DNA of 55,824 nt from an uncultured Opitutia bacterium (GTDB lineage: Bacteria; Verrucomicrobiota; Verrucomicrobiia; Opitutales; Opitutaceae), in assembly GCA_903827245.1 (NCBI GenBank), contig CAIKHO010000055.1:1-55824 (forward strand), read 5' to 3'. Made by a program: the position numbers and the translations under genes. Each line of letters opens with the position of its first letter. Position 1 is the first letter of the stretch. The notes beneath the pieces are model-generated. The model searched no databases. It saw nothing but the letters and a program-made list of their open reading frames with translations, and had not been told where the DNA came from. Below, piece by piece: positions 11,203-21,979 of this stretch.

Positions 11203-11325
11203 GGAAAGCAGAGATCAGAGGCCACTAGGCACGAAGGGAATAAAACTCGCCGCCGCGTCTCCCATTTCTAACCTCCGTGAAACCAAGGCCGCCCGGCGCG
11301 GTCCGCAGCCCAGGAGACCACCACC

Positions 11326-12291
11326 ATGCTCATTCGCTCACCTAAGGACTGGGAACTCTCGGAATCAGCCGTCACGGCCGAGCAGATCTACCGCCTCCGC
11401 AACCGCCGCGACTTCCTGAAGACCCTCGGCGTCGGCCTCGCCGGGGCCGCCCTCGCGCCGCGCGGGCTGCTCGGCGCCACCGCTGGCTTCCCTTCGCAGG
11501 AGAACCCGGCCTACCCCGCCTCCGCGCTCAAGCCGACCGCCTACGACTTCATCACGAGCTACAATAATTATTACGAGTTCGGCACCGATAAGAGCGAACC
11601 CAAGGACCAGGCCAAGGGTTTCAAGACCGACCCCTGGACCCTCGAGCTCGCCGGCCTCGTCAACCAGCCGGCCAAGTTCGACGTCAATGACCTCGTGAAA
11701 AAATTGGGCGGACTGGAGCAACGCGTCTACCGCCACCGGTGCGTCGAGGCCTGGTCGATGGTCGTGCCGTGGGACGGCTTTCCCCTCGCCAAGCTCGTCG
11801 CGCTCGCCGACCCGAAGCCCGAGGCGAAATTCCTCAAGTTCTCCACGTTCTTCGACACGAAGAACGTCGTCGGCCAGCGCGAGGCCATACTCGACTGGCC
11901 GTACGTCGAGGGACTCCGCCTCGACGAGGCGACCAACGAGCTGGCGTTCATCGCGACCGGCATCTACGGCAAGCCCATCCCGAACCAGAACGGCGCGCCG
12001 CTGCGCCTGGTCACGCCGTGGAAGTACGGCTTCAAGGGCATCAAGGCCATCGTGAAGATCGAGTTCACCGCCAAGGCGCCGCGCAACACGTGGAACGTGA
12101 TGGCGCCGCAGGAATACGGCTTCTACGCCAACGTGAATCCCAACGTCGACCACCCGCGCTGGTCCCAGGCGAGCGAGCGCATCATCGGCGCCGGCTTCCT
12201 CGGCGGCCGCCAGGCCACGCTGATGTTTAACGGCTACGAGAAGCAGGTCGCCGCCCTCTACAAGGGGCTGGATCTGGCACGGAATTACTGA
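11326..12291 (+). CDS. msrP: Protein-methionine-sulfoxide reductase catalytic subunit
   Basis: A 321-residue molybdopterin enzyme that repairs oxidised methionine in periplasmic proteins. The N-terminal region carries a twin-arginine signal (NRRDFLKTLGVGLAG). The sulfite-oxidase fold shows the molybdenum-ligating Cys139 in YRHRCVEAWSMVVPW, and the cofactor-contact segments GKPIPNQNGAPLRLVTPWKYG and FKGIKAIVKIE follow. The C-terminus NGYEKQVAALYKGLDLARNY is typical of MsrP/YedY. A ribosome-binding site AGGAG precedes the ATG by 7-8 nt. The partner gene msrQ follows on the same strand, separated by a palindromic element. Confidence 0.95.
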   Translation: MLIRSPKDWELSESAVTAEQIYRLRNRRDFLKTLGVGLAGAALAPRGLLGATAGFPSQENPAYPASALKPTAYDFITSYNNYYEFGTDKSEPKDQAKGFKTDPWTLELAGLVNQPAKFDVNDLVKKLGGLEQRVYRHRCVEAWSMVVPWDGFPLAKLVALADPKPEAKFLKFSTFFDTKNVVGQREAILDWPYVEGLRLDEATNELAFIATGIYGKPIPNQNGAPLRLVTPWKYGFKGIKAIVKIEFTAKAPRNTWNVMAPQEYGFYANVNPNVDHPRWSQASERIIGAGFLGGRQATLMFNGYEKQVAALYKGLDLARNY

Positions 12292-12415: not shown

Positions 12416-13096
12416 ATGTCCGATCCGCTGACGATCTCCCGCGTGTCCTTCCTCGAAAAACTCCTCCGCTCGAAGGCTTTTGTTGTCACGCTGATCGTCC
12501 TGCCCGGACTCTGGCCCGCGTGGCCGCTGCTGCGCCACGACCCGACCGTGCTGGCCGACCCGCTGAAATACGTGCTGCACCACCTCGGCTTCACCGCCTG
12601 CGTGCTGCTGGCCGTGGTCCTGACCTTCACGCCGCTGCGCGTGCTGTTTCCGAAATGGGGCGTCGCCCTCGCGCTCAACCGTCACCGCCGGCTCGTCGGG
12701 GTCAGCGCGTTTGTCTACGCCGCCCTGCATCTGACGACCCACCTCCTCTACGAGACAGGCGGTGATGTCTCGGCGCTGGGCCGCGTCTTCAAGGCGGCGA
12801 CCACGAAGCCTTTTCAACTCATCGGGCTGATTGCATTCACGATCCTGCTCGTGCTCGCCGTCACGAGCGTGAACGCCGCCGTGCGCTGGCTCGGCGGCAA
12901 GCGCTGGAAAAATCTCCACCGCCTAGTCTACGTCGCCGCCCCGCTGGCGGCGTACCACCAGATCACGGCGCGCAAGATTTTTCCCGTGCAGGTGTGGTGG
13001 ATCTTCGGCCCGCTCGTCGTGCTCGAGATCGCGCGCGTGATCCGCCAGCGCCAGGGCCCCCGCCCGCCGGCCAAGCCGGCGGTGGCTTCATCGTAG
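12416..13096 (+). CDS. msrQ: MsrQ haem-binding membrane subunit
   Basis: A 226-residue, six-helix membrane protein of the ferric-reductase-like family. It passes electrons from the quinone pool to MsrP. Haem-ligand His residues are plausible in YVLHHLGFTACVLLA, YAALHLTTHLLYE and RLVYVAAPLAAYHQ. The start is ATG at 12416, just after the repeat. The TAG stop lies inside a family C repeat (GTAGGGGCG), so the repeat supplies the stop codon. The gene forms an operon with msrP. Confidence 0.93.
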   Translation: MSDPLTISRVSFLEKLLRSKAFVVTLIVLPGLWPAWPLLRHDPTVLADPLKYVLHHLGFTACVLLAVVLTFTPLRVLFPKWGVALALNRHRRLVGVSAFVYAALHLTTHLLYETGGDVSALGRVFKAATTKPFQLIGLIAFTILLVLAVTSVNAAVRWLGGKRWKNLHRLVYVAAPLAAYHQITARKIFPVQVWWIFGPLVVLEIARVIRQRQGPRPPAKPAVASS

Positions 13097-17275: not shown

Positions 17276-17737
17276 ATGAATCAAACGTCCTGCCTTATCA
17301 AAACCGACCGCTCCATCGCGCCGCTCATCCTCCGCTTGACCCTCGCGCTCGTGCTCTTCCCGCACGGCGCCCAGAAGCTCCTCGGCTGGTGGGGCGGCTA
17401 CGGCTACGGCGGCACGATGCAGTTTTTCACGCAGTCTATGCACATCCCGACCCTCTTTGCCTTCCTCGCGATCATGGTCGAGTTCTTCGCGCCGCTGGTT
17501 CTCGCGGCCGGACTGCTGACGCGGCTCGCCGCCCTCATCATGGGCGTGCATATGGCCGTCGCGATGACGCTCGGGCATCTTCCGTTCGGGTTCTTCATGA
17601 ACTGGACCGGCCAGCAAAAGGGCGAGGGTTTTGAATTTCATCTGCTCTACATCGGCGTCGCGCTCGCGCTCGTCGTGTCCGGCGGCGGCCGTTGCTCGGT
17701 GGACGCCGCGCTGCAGAAGCCGGCGTCAGCGGCCTGA
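17276..17737 (+). CDS. DoxX family membrane protein
   Basis: A 153-residue protein with four hydrophobic helices. The family signature is visible in LRLTLALVLFPHGAQKLLG and EFFAPLVLAAGLLTRLAAL, and the family segment HLPFGFFMNW follows. DoxX proteins are small quinone- or redox-linked membrane subunits of mostly unknown role. It lies just after the pirin gene on the same strand and is probably co-transcribed and LysR-controlled. Confidence 0.9.
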   Translation: MNQTSCLIKTDRSIAPLILRLTLALVLFPHGAQKLLGWWGGYGYGGTMQFFTQSMHIPTLFAFLAIMVEFFAPLVLAAGLLTRLAALIMGVHMAVAMTLGHLPFGFFMNWTGQQKGEGFEFHLLYIGVALALVVSGGGRCSVDAALQKPASAA

Positions 17738-19189: not shown

Positions 19190-19657
19190 CTAGCCGGAAG
19201 TTTTCCGGCCGAAGAGCGCGTCGAGCGAAAGTTTTCCGGGGCCGAAGGTGAAGATCAGGGCCGAGGCGAAAAGAAAGAGGAACGGCGTGGCACCCGTGAA
19301 CTTGTCCGGGTCGCTGAAGACCGCGTGCAGCGCCTCGTTGTCGGCGGTCACGTACGCGATGATCATGGTGAACATCAGCGGCACCGTCACGATGCGCGTC
19401 CCGAGCCCGAGCAGGAGCAGCAGGCCGCCGCCGCACTCGGTGGAGCCGGCGACGATGGCGTTCAGTTTCGGCAGCGGGATGTGCAGGTCGTTGAAAAAGG
19501 ACGCGGTCTTCTCGAGGTTGGCCAAGTGGGCCTTGCCGGTGATGAAAAACTCCCAGCCCCAGTAGAGACGGATGATGAGCAGCAGGAGCGGTTGCAGCCA
19601 GCCCGCGACGGTGGCGAGGAGGCGGTCGATTTTGTTGTAGCCGGCGGAGAGGTTCAT
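19190..19657 (-). CDS. DoxX family membrane protein of the bufferin operon
   Basis: A 155-residue protein with four hydrophobic helices: LLLLIIRLYWGWEFFITGKAHL, STECGGGLLLLLGLGTRIVT, FTMIIAYVTADNEAL and FLFLFASALIFTFGPGKLSL (each part of a longer span). The segment WEFFITGKAHLANLEKTASF is typical of the DoxX proteins that accompany DUF692/DUF2063 genes (BufD/GigD, HvfD). It is the last of four co-directional genes and starts 26 bp after bufC. The likely role is a redox-linked membrane component of the metallophore system; the exact function is not established. Confidence 0.88.
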   Translation of the reverse strand: MNLSAGYNKIDRLLATVAGWLQPLLLLIIRLYWGWEFFITGKAHLANLEKTASFFNDLHIPLPKLNAIVAGSTECGGGLLLLLGLGTRIVTVPLMFTMIIAYVTADNEALHAVFSDPDKFTGATPFLFLFASALIFTFGPGKLSLDALFGRKTSG

Positions 19658-19683
19658 GGGGGTGGGAGGCTTGAACGCGGGGT

Positions 19684-20646
19684 TTATTTCCGGGGATTTT
19701 TGGGGCGGGCCGGCCGCGCGCAGAACCAGCCGAGTTCCATCCAGGTCGCAAACCAGTCGCGCACCTGCTCCGCGGTCACGCCCCGGCCCGCCGCGGCCAC
19801 CGCCTGCACGAGCGTACGGCCCGCCTGGATCGCCTCGAGCATGCGGAAGGCCGGCGCCTCGAGGCGCTTGTAGAAAAGCCGGTTGCGGTACCGGTGCACC
19901 GCCACGTGGATCGGACGGCGGCGGAACGGCGGGATTTTATGCCGCGTGGCGCGCCGCGGGCCGTGCTCGACTGCATGGCTGGCCTCGCCCCGCAGCGCGT
20001 CGCGCTCCTTCACGGCGAGAGTGTAGTCGTCCACGGGGTAATCGACCGCCAGCAATGAAAGGTATGGCTGCAACCCGAGGCGCAGGCGGGCCGGCGGGGC
20101 GTCAGCGATGTCATTGGGGGTCATCACGGGGCGCGCCTCGCCGTCGAAGGCCACCGTGCGCGCCCACTCGAATCGGGCCAGCGCGAGCGCTGCCGCCGTC
20201 CTAGGTGCCGTCCAGCGCGGTTCCTCGCGGATGAACTGCCCGAGCCGGGCGCAGAGGTTGCGCATGGTGAAGGACCGCGACGGATATTTCGCCAGGTAGG
20301 CCCGCACCAGGCGGGCAAAACGCCGCTCGCCCAGCAGCGCGCGCAGGCCGGGATTATCCTCGTAGACGCTGTCGATGATCCGGAACCAGTACATCCGGTT
20401 GTAGAGTTCGAGGCGCTCGAAGGATGTGAGCCGGTCGTTCGGCTTGATGAACTCCGCCGCGACCTGCGCCATCGGCCGGCCGTCGATCCATTTCGGCTGG
20501 AGCCGGTCGTCGTCCGTCAGCGGCCGCACCAGCACATGCGTCATCAGCCGCTGGAGCGTGCGCAGATCCGCCGTCGTGTGCAGCCGTTGCGGCGCATGCT
20601 TCGGCGGAGGTTTGAGGCCGGCGGGGCGAGAGGCGGGGCGGGGCAT
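19684..20646 (-). CDS. bufC: BufC/HvfC-like putative DNA-binding-domain (DUF2063) protein
   Basis: A 320-residue protein. The N-terminal DUF2063 domain is recognisable: LRTLQRLMTHVLVRPL, PNDRLTSFERLELYNRMYWF and DNPGLRALLGERRFARLV, then YLAKYPSRSFTMRNLCARLG. A C-terminal winged-helix-like segment (FRMLEAIQAGRTLVQAVAA) follows. Proteins of this family are partners of DUF692 (MNIO) enzymes, binding the precursor peptide and presenting it. It follows bufB by 93 bp, which hold a family E hairpin, and precedes doxX. The C-terminal domain is longer than the minimal partner protein. Confidence 0.88.
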   Translation of the reverse strand: MPRPASRPAGLKPPPKHAPQRLHTTADLRTLQRLMTHVLVRPLTDDDRLQPKWIDGRPMAQVAAEFIKPNDRLTSFERLELYNRMYWFRIIDSVYEDNPGLRALLGERRFARLVRAYLAKYPSRSFTMRNLCARLGQFIREEPRWTAPRTAAALALARFEWARTVAFDGEARPVMTPNDIADAPPARLRLGLQPYLSLLAVDYPVDDYTLAVKERDALRGEASHAVEHGPRRATRHKIPPFRRRPIHVAVHRYRNRLFYKRLEAPAFRMLEAIQAGRTLVQAVAAAGRGVTAEQVRDWFATWMELGWFCARPARPKNPRK

Positions 20647-20653
20647 GAAGTAA

Positions 20654-20738
20654 ACTTTCTCGTTCTCTTTCGTCAGGAGCTGGATTGAAACGCGGACCCC
20701 GCGGTGGTGAGGAAGAAAGAGATGGAGGAAAGGGAATG
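20654..20738. repeat. Pyrimidine/purine hairpin, family E copy 2, between bufB and bufC
   Basis: TTTCTCGTTCTCTTTCGTCAG on one side and GAAGAAAGAGATGGAGGAAA on the other, a degenerate inverse pair. It occupies almost the whole bufB/bufC gap and so is transcribed with the operon. Confidence 0.65.
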
Positions 20739-20739
20739 A

Positions 20740-21609
20740 TTATGACGCCGTCACCGCGGCGCGTTTCTTCGCCGCGCGCGCCCCGCCGATGTACGCGTTC
20801 GCCTTCAGCGCCTCGTCGTGCACCTCGTCGAAGGACGGGATGCGGTCGTCCCACTCCAGCAGCGTGGCCGTCACCCCGCAACGCTTCGTGGCGTGGGCGT
20901 AGAGCTTCCACACGGGGTCGAGCACCGGGTGGTCGTGGGTATCGAGGATGTACTTTTCAAACTTGGTGTGGCCGGCGACATGGATCTGCCCGACCCGGTC
21001 GTGGGGCACGTGGTTGAGGTAATCGTAAGGGTTAAAATCGTGGTTCTTCGAGGAGACGTAGATATTGTTCACGTCGAGGAGAATTCCACAGTCGGCGCGC
21101 TCGACGACCTCGCCGAGGAACTCCCACTCGGTCATCTCGGACGCGTGAAACTCGGCGTAGCTGCTGACGTTCTCCACGCAGATCGGGACCTCGAGGTAAT
21201 CGCGGACCTGCCGGATCTTCTCGGCGGTGCGCTTTGCGGCCGCGAAGGTGTAAGGCATCGGCAGCAGGTCGTGCGTGAACGTGCCGTCGACGCTGCCCCA
21301 GCAGAGGTGGTCGGACAGCCAGGGCGTCTTGGTGCGCCTGACCAGGGTCTTAAGTTTTTTGAGGTGGGCGCGATCGGGCTTGTCGGCCGAGCCGAAGTAC
21401 ATCGAGACGCCGTGCTGCACCACCTGGTACTGCTCGAGGATCTGGTCGAGCACCTCGAGCGGGCGCCCGCCATCGACCATGAAATTCTCCGAGATGATCT
21501 CGAACCAGTCGACGACCGGCTTTTTTTCGAGGATGTGCGCGTAGTGCGGCACGCGCAGGCCGAGGCCGATGCCGTAGTCAGTGTGGCCGTTGAAGCGATT
21601 GGCGGGCAT
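20740..21609 (-). CDS. bufB: MNIO (DUF692) peptide-modifying enzyme, BufB-like
   Basis: A 289-residue TIM-barrel enzyme of the multinuclear non-haem iron oxidative family. The iron-ligand regions are visible: FEIISENFM, VVQHGVSMYFGS, WLSDHLCW, VCIENVSSY-type PICVENVSSY, CGILLDVNNIYVSSKNH, RVGQIHVAGH, DTHDHPV and TLLEWDD. In characterised systems these enzymes convert Cys residues of a precursor into copper-binding heterocycles. The gene lies between the Cys-rich precursor and bufC. The 82-bp gap to bufA contains an intrinsic terminator, so bufB expression depends on read-through or an internal promoter. Confidence 0.93.
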   Translation of the reverse strand: MPANRFNGHTDYGIGLGLRVPHYAHILEKKPVVDWFEIISENFMVDGGRPLEVLDQILEQYQVVQHGVSMYFGSADKPDRAHLKKLKTLVRRTKTPWLSDHLCWGSVDGTFTHDLLPMPYTFAAAKRTAEKIRQVRDYLEVPICVENVSSYAEFHASEMTEWEFLGEVVERADCGILLDVNNIYVSSKNHDFNPYDYLNHVPHDRVGQIHVAGHTKFEKYILDTHDHPVLDPVWKLYAHATKRCGVTATLLEWDDRIPSFDEVHDEALKANAYIGGARAAKKRAAVTAS

Positions 21610-21635
21610 GGCGGGATCCTCCCGGATGATAACCC

Positions 21636-21670
21636 AAAAAAAACGCGGCCGGCGGTCAACGCCGGCCGCG
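21636..21670 (-). terminator. Intrinsic terminator/attenuator between bufA and bufB
   Basis: A perfect 11-bp stem, CGCGGCCGGCG paired with CGCCGGCCGCG, and a 5-nt loop. Read on the minus strand it is followed by eight T. It lies 21 bp after the bufA stop and before the bufB start, so it should limit transcription of the modifying genes relative to the precursor. Confidence 0.9.
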
Positions 21671-21691
21671 CGTGAGAGAAGGAGGGACTAA

Positions 21692-21979
21692 TCAGCCCTT
21701 CTTGTCGTCGGTCGTGGCCTTCGTCATGGTGGAGCAGCCGCCTTTGCCCGCGCAGGTGTTCTTGCCCTTGCAGCCCGCGTCGCTCGTCTTGCAGCCGCCG
21801 AAGCCCTTGCAGGCGTTCTTGCCCTTGCAGTCGTGCTTGGCCTTCGGGTCTTCCTTGGCGTCCTTCGAGGCGGCGGTGCCGGCCTTGTCGTCGGCGGCAT
21901 AGGTGCGGACGGCGAGGGCGCCGGTGTAGAGGCCGGCCATGGCGGCGGCCGTGATCAGGAGTCGGGTGGATTTGTTCAT
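21692..21979 (-). CDS. bufA: BufA2-like bufferin precursor (Cys-rich RiPP metallophore)
   Basis: A 95-residue precursor. Residues 1-28 form a signal peptide (RLLITAAAMAGLYTGALA, then VRTYA) directing Sec export. A Lys/Asp/Ala linker leads to a Cys-rich core with six Cys at 51, 57, 63, 70, 76 and 82. The core is two copies of CKGKNxCxGxGGC joined by KTSDAG, and a short polar tail follows. The start is the ATG just after the leaderless upstream region; longer in-frame extensions lack a signal sequence. Known bufferins are modified by DUF692 enzymes and bind copper in the periplasm. The assignment to the BufA2 type rests on the Cys spacing and operon, and copper is the inferred ligand. Confidence 0.85.
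   Translation of the reverse strand: MNKSTRLLITAAAMAGLYTGALAVRTYAADDKAGTAASKDAKEDPKAKHDCKGKNACKGFGGCKTSDAGCKGKNTCAGKGGCSTMTKATTDDKKG

Follow-up and report, generated by a model that had tools for sequence, protein, structure and literature searches.

What does a four-gene operon in the genome of an uncultured Opitutaceae bacterium (Verrucomicrobiota) make, and which stress would call for its expression? The operon lies in contig CAIKHO010000055.1; the 55,824 nucleotides analyzed here (the window) are this entire contig, C55 of a 3.55-Mb genome in 91 contigs. Four co-directional minus-strand genes had been read as a bufferin-type operon, and all four are found at that place and on that strand, in the order bufA (precursor), bufB (MNIO enzyme of the DUF692 family), bufC (DUF2063 partner) and doxX (Table 1). 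The span originally given, 19190-21979, encloses the genes but ends short of a predicted promoter upstream of bufA, and the regulation was overlooked. We consider it likely that this is a Buf2-type (Cys-Lys) bufferin/captophorin operon and that, in the Opitutaceae, an autoregulated extracytoplasmic function (ECF) sigma factor controls it within a small regulon; the product of the gene set is very likely a chemically modified peptide that binds copper in the compartment beyond the inner membrane. The operon type is known, and the predicted regulon in the Opitutaceae is the part of interest.

The MNIO protein matches PF05114 with 357 bits, exceeds the cut-off of the NCBI BufB equivalog model NF050167 MNIO_BufB (347 vs. 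310 bits), in line with the original assignment, and is the single MNIO match in its genome. Its alignment with 3BWW consists of two blocks, 13-215 and 220-265, and in the second block, LLEWDD of the window enzyme stands opposite LLERDF, with an Asp following the presumed catalytic Asp in place of the Phe of 3BWW. At the specificity site, Asp is reported for Cys-Lys enzymes, whereas Lys-Cys enzymes have Phe there (PMC13097082); the comparison through 3BWW would place the window Asp onto this site of FonB. Together with the nearest relatives of the enzyme, which among the matches listed come from Opitutaceae, these features uphold the claim of a BufA2-like operon in a verrucomicrobial genome.

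The precursor has the six Cys residues (positions 51, 57, 63, 70, 76 and 82) and the Sec signal peptide (judged by eye) that had been predicted, and its gene directly precedes that of the MNIO. The six Cys form two copies of C-K-G-K-N-x-C-x-G-x-G-G-C, and Lys directly follows four of them. The NCBI BufA2 model matches 14 of 15 sampled precursors, the window's included, at E <=0.01; all five that were scored singly against it stay below 60 bits. In its own genome, there is one convincing BufA-like match, with two more at E 0.2 and 0.4. The search for homologous cores proposed earlier was run and showed that the duplicated CKGKNxCxGxGGC is common in the fetched loci from Verrucomicrobiota and Acidobacteriota. 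The suggestion of a new product is thus weakened, Buf2 being an already described family, while the operon assignment stands. The six-Cys, two-module precursor is the commonest form among the fetched loci; others have a single module (L076, L063), extra N-terminal CKGKDGC-like units or near-pure CKGKDG arrays. Arrays of this kind are found in Opitutaceae loci L042, L043, L054, L017 and L030, whose MNIOs are 80-85% identical to that of the window; in the MNIO tree, the first three share a starred five-row subclade with L032 and L050. One-module, two-module and array-type precursors beside close enzymes make up a natural series for the study of Cys choice by MNIOs.

The predicted DUF2063 partner and DoxX protein are confirmed by PF09836 (46.3 bits against a cut-off of 27.2) and PF07681 (73 bits), respectively. 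A structure model of the partner built from 18 sequences has a pLDDT (predicted local distance difference test) of 88.8, and the only PDB chains that it matches at E <=0.001 are two of TglI (best E 3e-5, TM score 0.47-0.48 by query length), the partner of the MNIO TglH; a phmmer search of the partner against PDB sequences gave no match. RRE proteins such as TbiB1 match the model only at E >1, so that the RRE-like assignment rests mainly on TglI.

A scan of genome contigs confirmed at least 565 MNIO relatives, of which the best 80 (74-89% identity) were retained; among the 99 loci examined, with the window counted once, 90 have a Cys-rich precursor directly upstream of the MNIO. Relatives in such number with this recurrent precursor put the operon beyond chance. 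In the remaining nine oriented loci, no adjacent precursor was called by the script, and these were omitted from the promoter and hairpin counts. In an 84-row MNIO tree, a starred group of 81 (the 80 relatives and the window) stands apart from three long-branched proteobacterial enzymes, and the window enzyme is one of the 23 members, mostly from Opitutaceae, of a starred clade. The operon is not unique, the enzyme belonging to a clade common to Verrucomicrobiota and Acidobacteriota.

An MNIO match is present in 19 of 95 related genomes, namely 18 of the family and a distant one (32% identity), which puts buf in 18 of the 61 family genomes, its own included, with MNIO identities of 76-100%; neither of the two other genomes of the same genus, one of them only 72% complete, has a match. 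The 2-hydroxyacid dehydrogenase gene adjoins the MNIO gene in G005, G017, G024, G026, G032 and G044, and in G005 and G024 the opposite flank has the RDD/GYF gene nearby. In G002, one of the same-genus genomes without buf, only 57 nt separate the ends of the matches to the dehydrogenase and RDD/GYF genes. A recent horizontal gain of buf was weighed, and loss in G002 is the simpler explanation.

A scan for sigma-70 promoters at the operon found no sites, and an alignment of upstream regions was therefore undertaken. The 32 regions aligned revealed GGGAATA and CTCNNA separated by 16 nt. Counted as GGAATA-N16-18-CTCNNA in loci with at least 600 nt upstream, the motif precedes bufA in 28 of 29 loci of the Opitutaceae clade (28/32 overall), 5 of 23 from other Verrucomicrobiota and Planctomycetota and none of 29 from Acidobacteriota, whereas the background for a similar pattern, bufA sites included, is ~0.02 per 580 nt. 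Among the 18 buf-positive family genomes, the motif is missed before bufA only in G060, where the contig ends ~290 nt before the gene. Across the 61 family genomes, GGGAATA-N16/17-CTCNNA occurs at 163 sites, compared with 35 for the reversed pattern, and in the window's own genome at four, compared with none. These four lie before a sigma gene (C25), msrPQ (C55:11236), bufA (C55:22051) and a gene for an MsrB with a signal peptide by eye (C75). The second motif copy and the msrPQ pair thus belong to the window itself.

The genes behind the motif were surveyed at 96 distinct sites, mostly from sigma-positive genomes; most known bufA sites fall outside the sample. By raw counts, the labels downstream are sigma (21 sites), MsrA (6), MsrB (2), MsrP (1), buf (4), TlpA-like (1) and cytochrome b561 (1), with 60 sites unlabeled. 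Among the latter, inspection by eye and with Pfam/NCBIfam on one representative each recognized three DUF1223-like proteins, two AhpC/TSA-like ones and one DUF3299 protein. Two more precede a stand-alone bufferin-type DoxX gene (G041, G048), and in both genomes the sequence stretch beside the MNIO contains no DoxX; further unlabeled sites lie within genes and are probably due to chance. The motif was also seen, again at unlabeled sites, before group-2 (RpoD-like, by eye) sigma genes at L192, L241 and L280 (G003, G015 and G042, respectively). In the buf-less G002, it stands before a Met-rich, apparently exported peptide (L180, G002:C17) and before a pair of cytochrome b561 and molybdo-oxidoreductase genes.

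The sigma gene co-occurs with the operon. The G002 ortholog matches PF04542 and PF08281 and scores 70.6 bits against the 42.9-bit cut-off of TIGR02937, as befits an ECF sigma with sigma70 regions 2 and 4. Orthologs are present in 39 of the 61 family genomes: in all 18 buf-positive ones and in 21 of the 42 buf-negative ones that were in the MNIO search (G095, outside that search, is excluded; Fisher p 8e-5). In 5 of the 18 (G006, G025, G035, G050 and G059), no more than 1.8 kb separates the sigma gene from the MNIO gene. Across 194 genomes of the phylum, with thresholds of E <=1e-60 for MNIO and E <=1e-35 for sigma, it is present in 14 of 18 MNIO-positive and 16 of 176 MNIO-negative genomes (p 4e-10), and it adjoins the MNIO gene outside the family as well (G155, G166, G265). 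Genomes G133, G144, G161 and G229, all of one genus and 2.2-2.5 Mb in size, have an MNIO at 65-67% identity and no sigma match. Of the 80 genome-contig loci, 22 have an ECF-like sigma gene no further than 3.5 kb from the MNIO (a raw count, some flanks being short), the Acidobacteriota type being different: in the Buf2-type operons L040, L055, L059, L060, L064, L070, L083, L084 and L091, it lies at a fixed ~1.3 kb after the MNIO. The anti-sigma factor has one transmembrane segment (by eye) and two conserved Cys, present in 38 and 36 of 41 alignment rows, several of which are fragments; it matches DUF3379 only below the cut-off and has no DUF1109. Sigma factors of the copper-sensing CorE type carry a Cys-rich tail; the Opitutaceae sigma has none, and this identity was rejected.

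Between the first two genes, at distances of 20 nt from the bufA stop codon and 33 nt from bufB, there is a terminator-like hairpin with a T run. Defined by at least 8 pairs, 6 of them G-C, such a hairpin is found in 31 of 90 loci, compared with 0.17 expected from shuffled sequences; after three duplicate pairs are dropped, the count is 29 of 87 distinct loci (Opitutaceae clade 23/32, Acidobacteriota 6/30, others 0/25). It probably lets far more precursor than enzyme be produced. That it is a dispersed repeat was considered and rejected: the genome has a single copy of the pattern (a palindrome, hence matched on both strands), a rarity that is uninformative because the reversed control matched twice per strand.

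Table 1. Coordinates of the operon, its putative control elements and the msr locus in the window
Feature	Position	Strand	Basis or remark
bufferin-type DoxX membrane protein, 155 aa	19190..19657	-	PF07681, HvfX family
bufC, DUF2063 partner (PME type 1), 320 aa, probable C-terminal RRE-like part	19684..20646	-	PF09836, model
bufB, MNIO (DUF692) enzyme, 289 aa	20740..21609	-	PF05114, NF050167, 3BWW match
terminator-like hairpin + T run between bufA and bufB	21643..21671	-	12 pairs, 11 G-C
bufA-like precursor, 95 aa	21692..21979	-	NF050166 BufA2 30.7 bits vs. cut-off 60
predicted ECF-sigma promoter GGGAATA-N16-CTCTAA	22051..22079	-	starts 100 nt upstream of the bufA ATG
second promoter-motif copy	11236..11264	+	starts 90 nt upstream of the msrP ATG
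msrP, periplasmic protein-methionine-sulfoxide reductase catalytic subunit	11326..12291	+	NF003767 MsrP 436.8 bits vs. 207
msrQ-like heme membrane subunit	12416..13096	+	PF01794 56 bits vs. 28

Outside the operon, annotation of the window covered the scanned neighbors and the msr genes. The msrQ-like protein reaches 97.1 bits with NF003831 MsrQ, under the cut-off of 130. A second DoxX/DoxD-like gene (17276-17737, plus strand) lies on the opposite strand, ~1.5 kb off the operon.

Taken together, the genes point to the following scenario. BufA would be made with its Sec signal peptide and bound by the DUF2063 partner through the partner's RRE, after which the MNIO would oxidize several of its Cys residues, most likely those followed by Lys, to thiooxazoles ahead of export. 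The mature peptide would then capture copper in the periplasm, with DoxX as a putative membrane accessory; copper buffering in this organism is suggested by analogy with known bufferins. In the Opitutaceae, the operon would be controlled by the ECF sigma, which presumably recognizes the motif and also drives its own gene, and by an anti-sigma whose two conserved Cys are probably extracytoplasmic. The same predicted promoter precedes genes for MsrPQ, for thiol-redox proteins and for an MsrA or MsrB that is exported, and the upstream DNA suggests co-activation with enzymes that repair oxidized proteins. The promoter and the predicted Msr co-regulation suggest envelope oxidative or metal stress, and not copper alone, as the inducer.

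Several observations weigh against this interpretation. Three of the four proteins fall short of equivalog or family cut-offs: bufA for BufA2 (Table 1), the partner for HvfC (43.5 vs. 142 bits) and, slightly, DoxX for HvfX (71.7 vs. 80 bits); the 3BWW block that holds LLEWDD is weak when taken alone (i-Evalue 12). The scanned neighbors (the 2-hydroxyacid dehydrogenase, the RDD/GYF protein and the second DoxX) include no copper genes. Of the 96 motif sites, 60 received no label from the regulon queries, and some of the labeled ones match by construction because those queries came from the same sites. The sigma is often present without buf, as in the 21 buf-negative family genomes, four MNIO-positive genomes of a single genus lack it, and the association tests overstate independence because genomes share descent. 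Finally, in the window's own genome, the sigma gene is split over two contig ends, C25 (L177) and C58 (L305), an apparent interruption that could leave this strain's regulon silent.

The last point bears on the possibility that the system is decaying here, with the operon silent or weakly expressed. Homology to the sigma stops near residue 63 close to the C25 end and picks up near the C58 end; the sequence flanking the break on either side is unrelated, and a shared ACGCTTT and imperfect inverted repeats (by eye) are present, probably marking an insertion element; the lack of buf in G002 would fit as well. Decay nevertheless appears unlikely to us, given that none of the four buf genes is damaged, that promoter and hairpin are likewise intact, and that the assembly may have captured a strain variant at the break. 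A different MNIO chemistry, with an oxazolone thioamide chalkophore or a pearlin- or chryseobasin-type product, is very improbable: the enzyme does register with ApyH (100 bits), ChrH (57) and MbnB (37), each time under the model's own cut-off, compared with 347 bits and a passed cut-off for BufB, and it comes with a DUF2063 partner and a BufA2-type precursor with a signal peptide.

The remaining alternatives concern function under the same gene assignments. The operon could encode a plain copper-stress bufferin under another (copper) regulator, the ECF motif at bufA being coincidental or minor. The proteobacterial Buf2 operon of pKF715B, which adjoins copper-resistance genes, and the complete lack of the motif in Acidobacteriota loci with full upstream sequence are compatible with that; the near-universal motif in the Opitutaceae clade, set against its low background, and the sigma genes that adjoin the operon in 5 of the 18 buf-positive family genomes make it improbable. 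Alternatively, the thiooxazole peptides of this branch might primarily serve envelope oxidant defense (against hypochlorite, copper-driven oxidation or thiol stress) rather than as a stand-alone copper buffer. In this reading, ECF sigma systems of two phyla, unlike each other, would each have linked a bufferin to methionine-sulfoxide repair, and the Met-rich peptide behind the motif in G002 looks as if one such peptide, sacrificial or metal-binding, could replace the other; we regard it as a tentative possibility, with the odds against it. The Buf2-type operon under an autoregulated ECF sigma remains our preferred reading.

Buf2 (Buf_6/12Cys, BufA2) clusters have been described by Antoine et al. 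2025 (PMC12452194), and the window operon shares with them the order precursor-MNIO-DUF2063-DoxX, the six-Cys signal-peptide precursor and the BufB-type MNIO. It differs in the sub-cut-off precursor and in the ECF promoter and nearby sigma genes; the main text of PMC12452194 reports sigma and NrsF genes in Buf1 clusters, not in Buf2. Three proteobacterial plasmid BufA2-like peptides have C-x-G-x-N-x-C-K-G in common with the window precursor, but their last Cys lies further downstream, whereas the sixth Cys of the window precursor closes a second perfect module. A proteobacterial Buf2-like operon on the conjugative plasmid pKF715B (L308) adjoins copper-resistance genes; on plasmid pASEM-1 (L309), a sigma-70 gene and two NrsF genes come immediately after a BufA2-like operon, which a divergent DUF2282 (Buf1) operon adjoins. 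With the captophorins, 5-thiooxazole metallophores whose cellular role is stated as open (Gadgil et al. 2026, PMC13097082), the shared features are an MNIO with a PME1 partner, Cys-Lys motifs and the Asp site; unlike them, the present system is known from genes alone, and its enzyme clade is far in the tree from the three proteobacterial plasmid enzymes. The word start Verrucomicrob is absent from the main texts of PMC12452194 and PMC13097082, and, judged by titles and the beginnings of abstracts, no publication on an ECF-controlled bufferin in Verrucomicrobiota was found.

Two proteobacterial regulons offer the closest parallels. In Brucella, BcrS/BcrXQP combines an ECF sigma of the ECF16 group with MsrPQ and a Met-rich peptide and is induced by hypochlorous acid (PMC8315932, whose main text does not contain the words DUF2282 or DUF692); in the Opitutaceae, by contrast, a Met-rich peptide at the motif is seen only in the buf-less G002. 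In Caulobacter, SigF governs two Buf1 operons as well as YedY/MsrP (PMC3511200), so that an ECF sigma over bufferin operons and YedY/MsrP is common to both systems. On the Caulobacter side, the operons are of the Buf1 type, the anti-sigma is NrsF (DUF1109, six transmembrane segments) and the promoter is different. The Opitutaceae system falls outside SigF/NrsF (ECF16): its sigma is 22% identical to the one beside the NrsF genes on an Asticcacaulis plasmid, its anti-sigma has no DUF1109 and its motif is another. A regulon in a second phylum, with a sigma unlike SigF, would thus again join a bufferin to periplasmic methionine repair, which provides a testable link between the stress and the protection afforded by the peptide.

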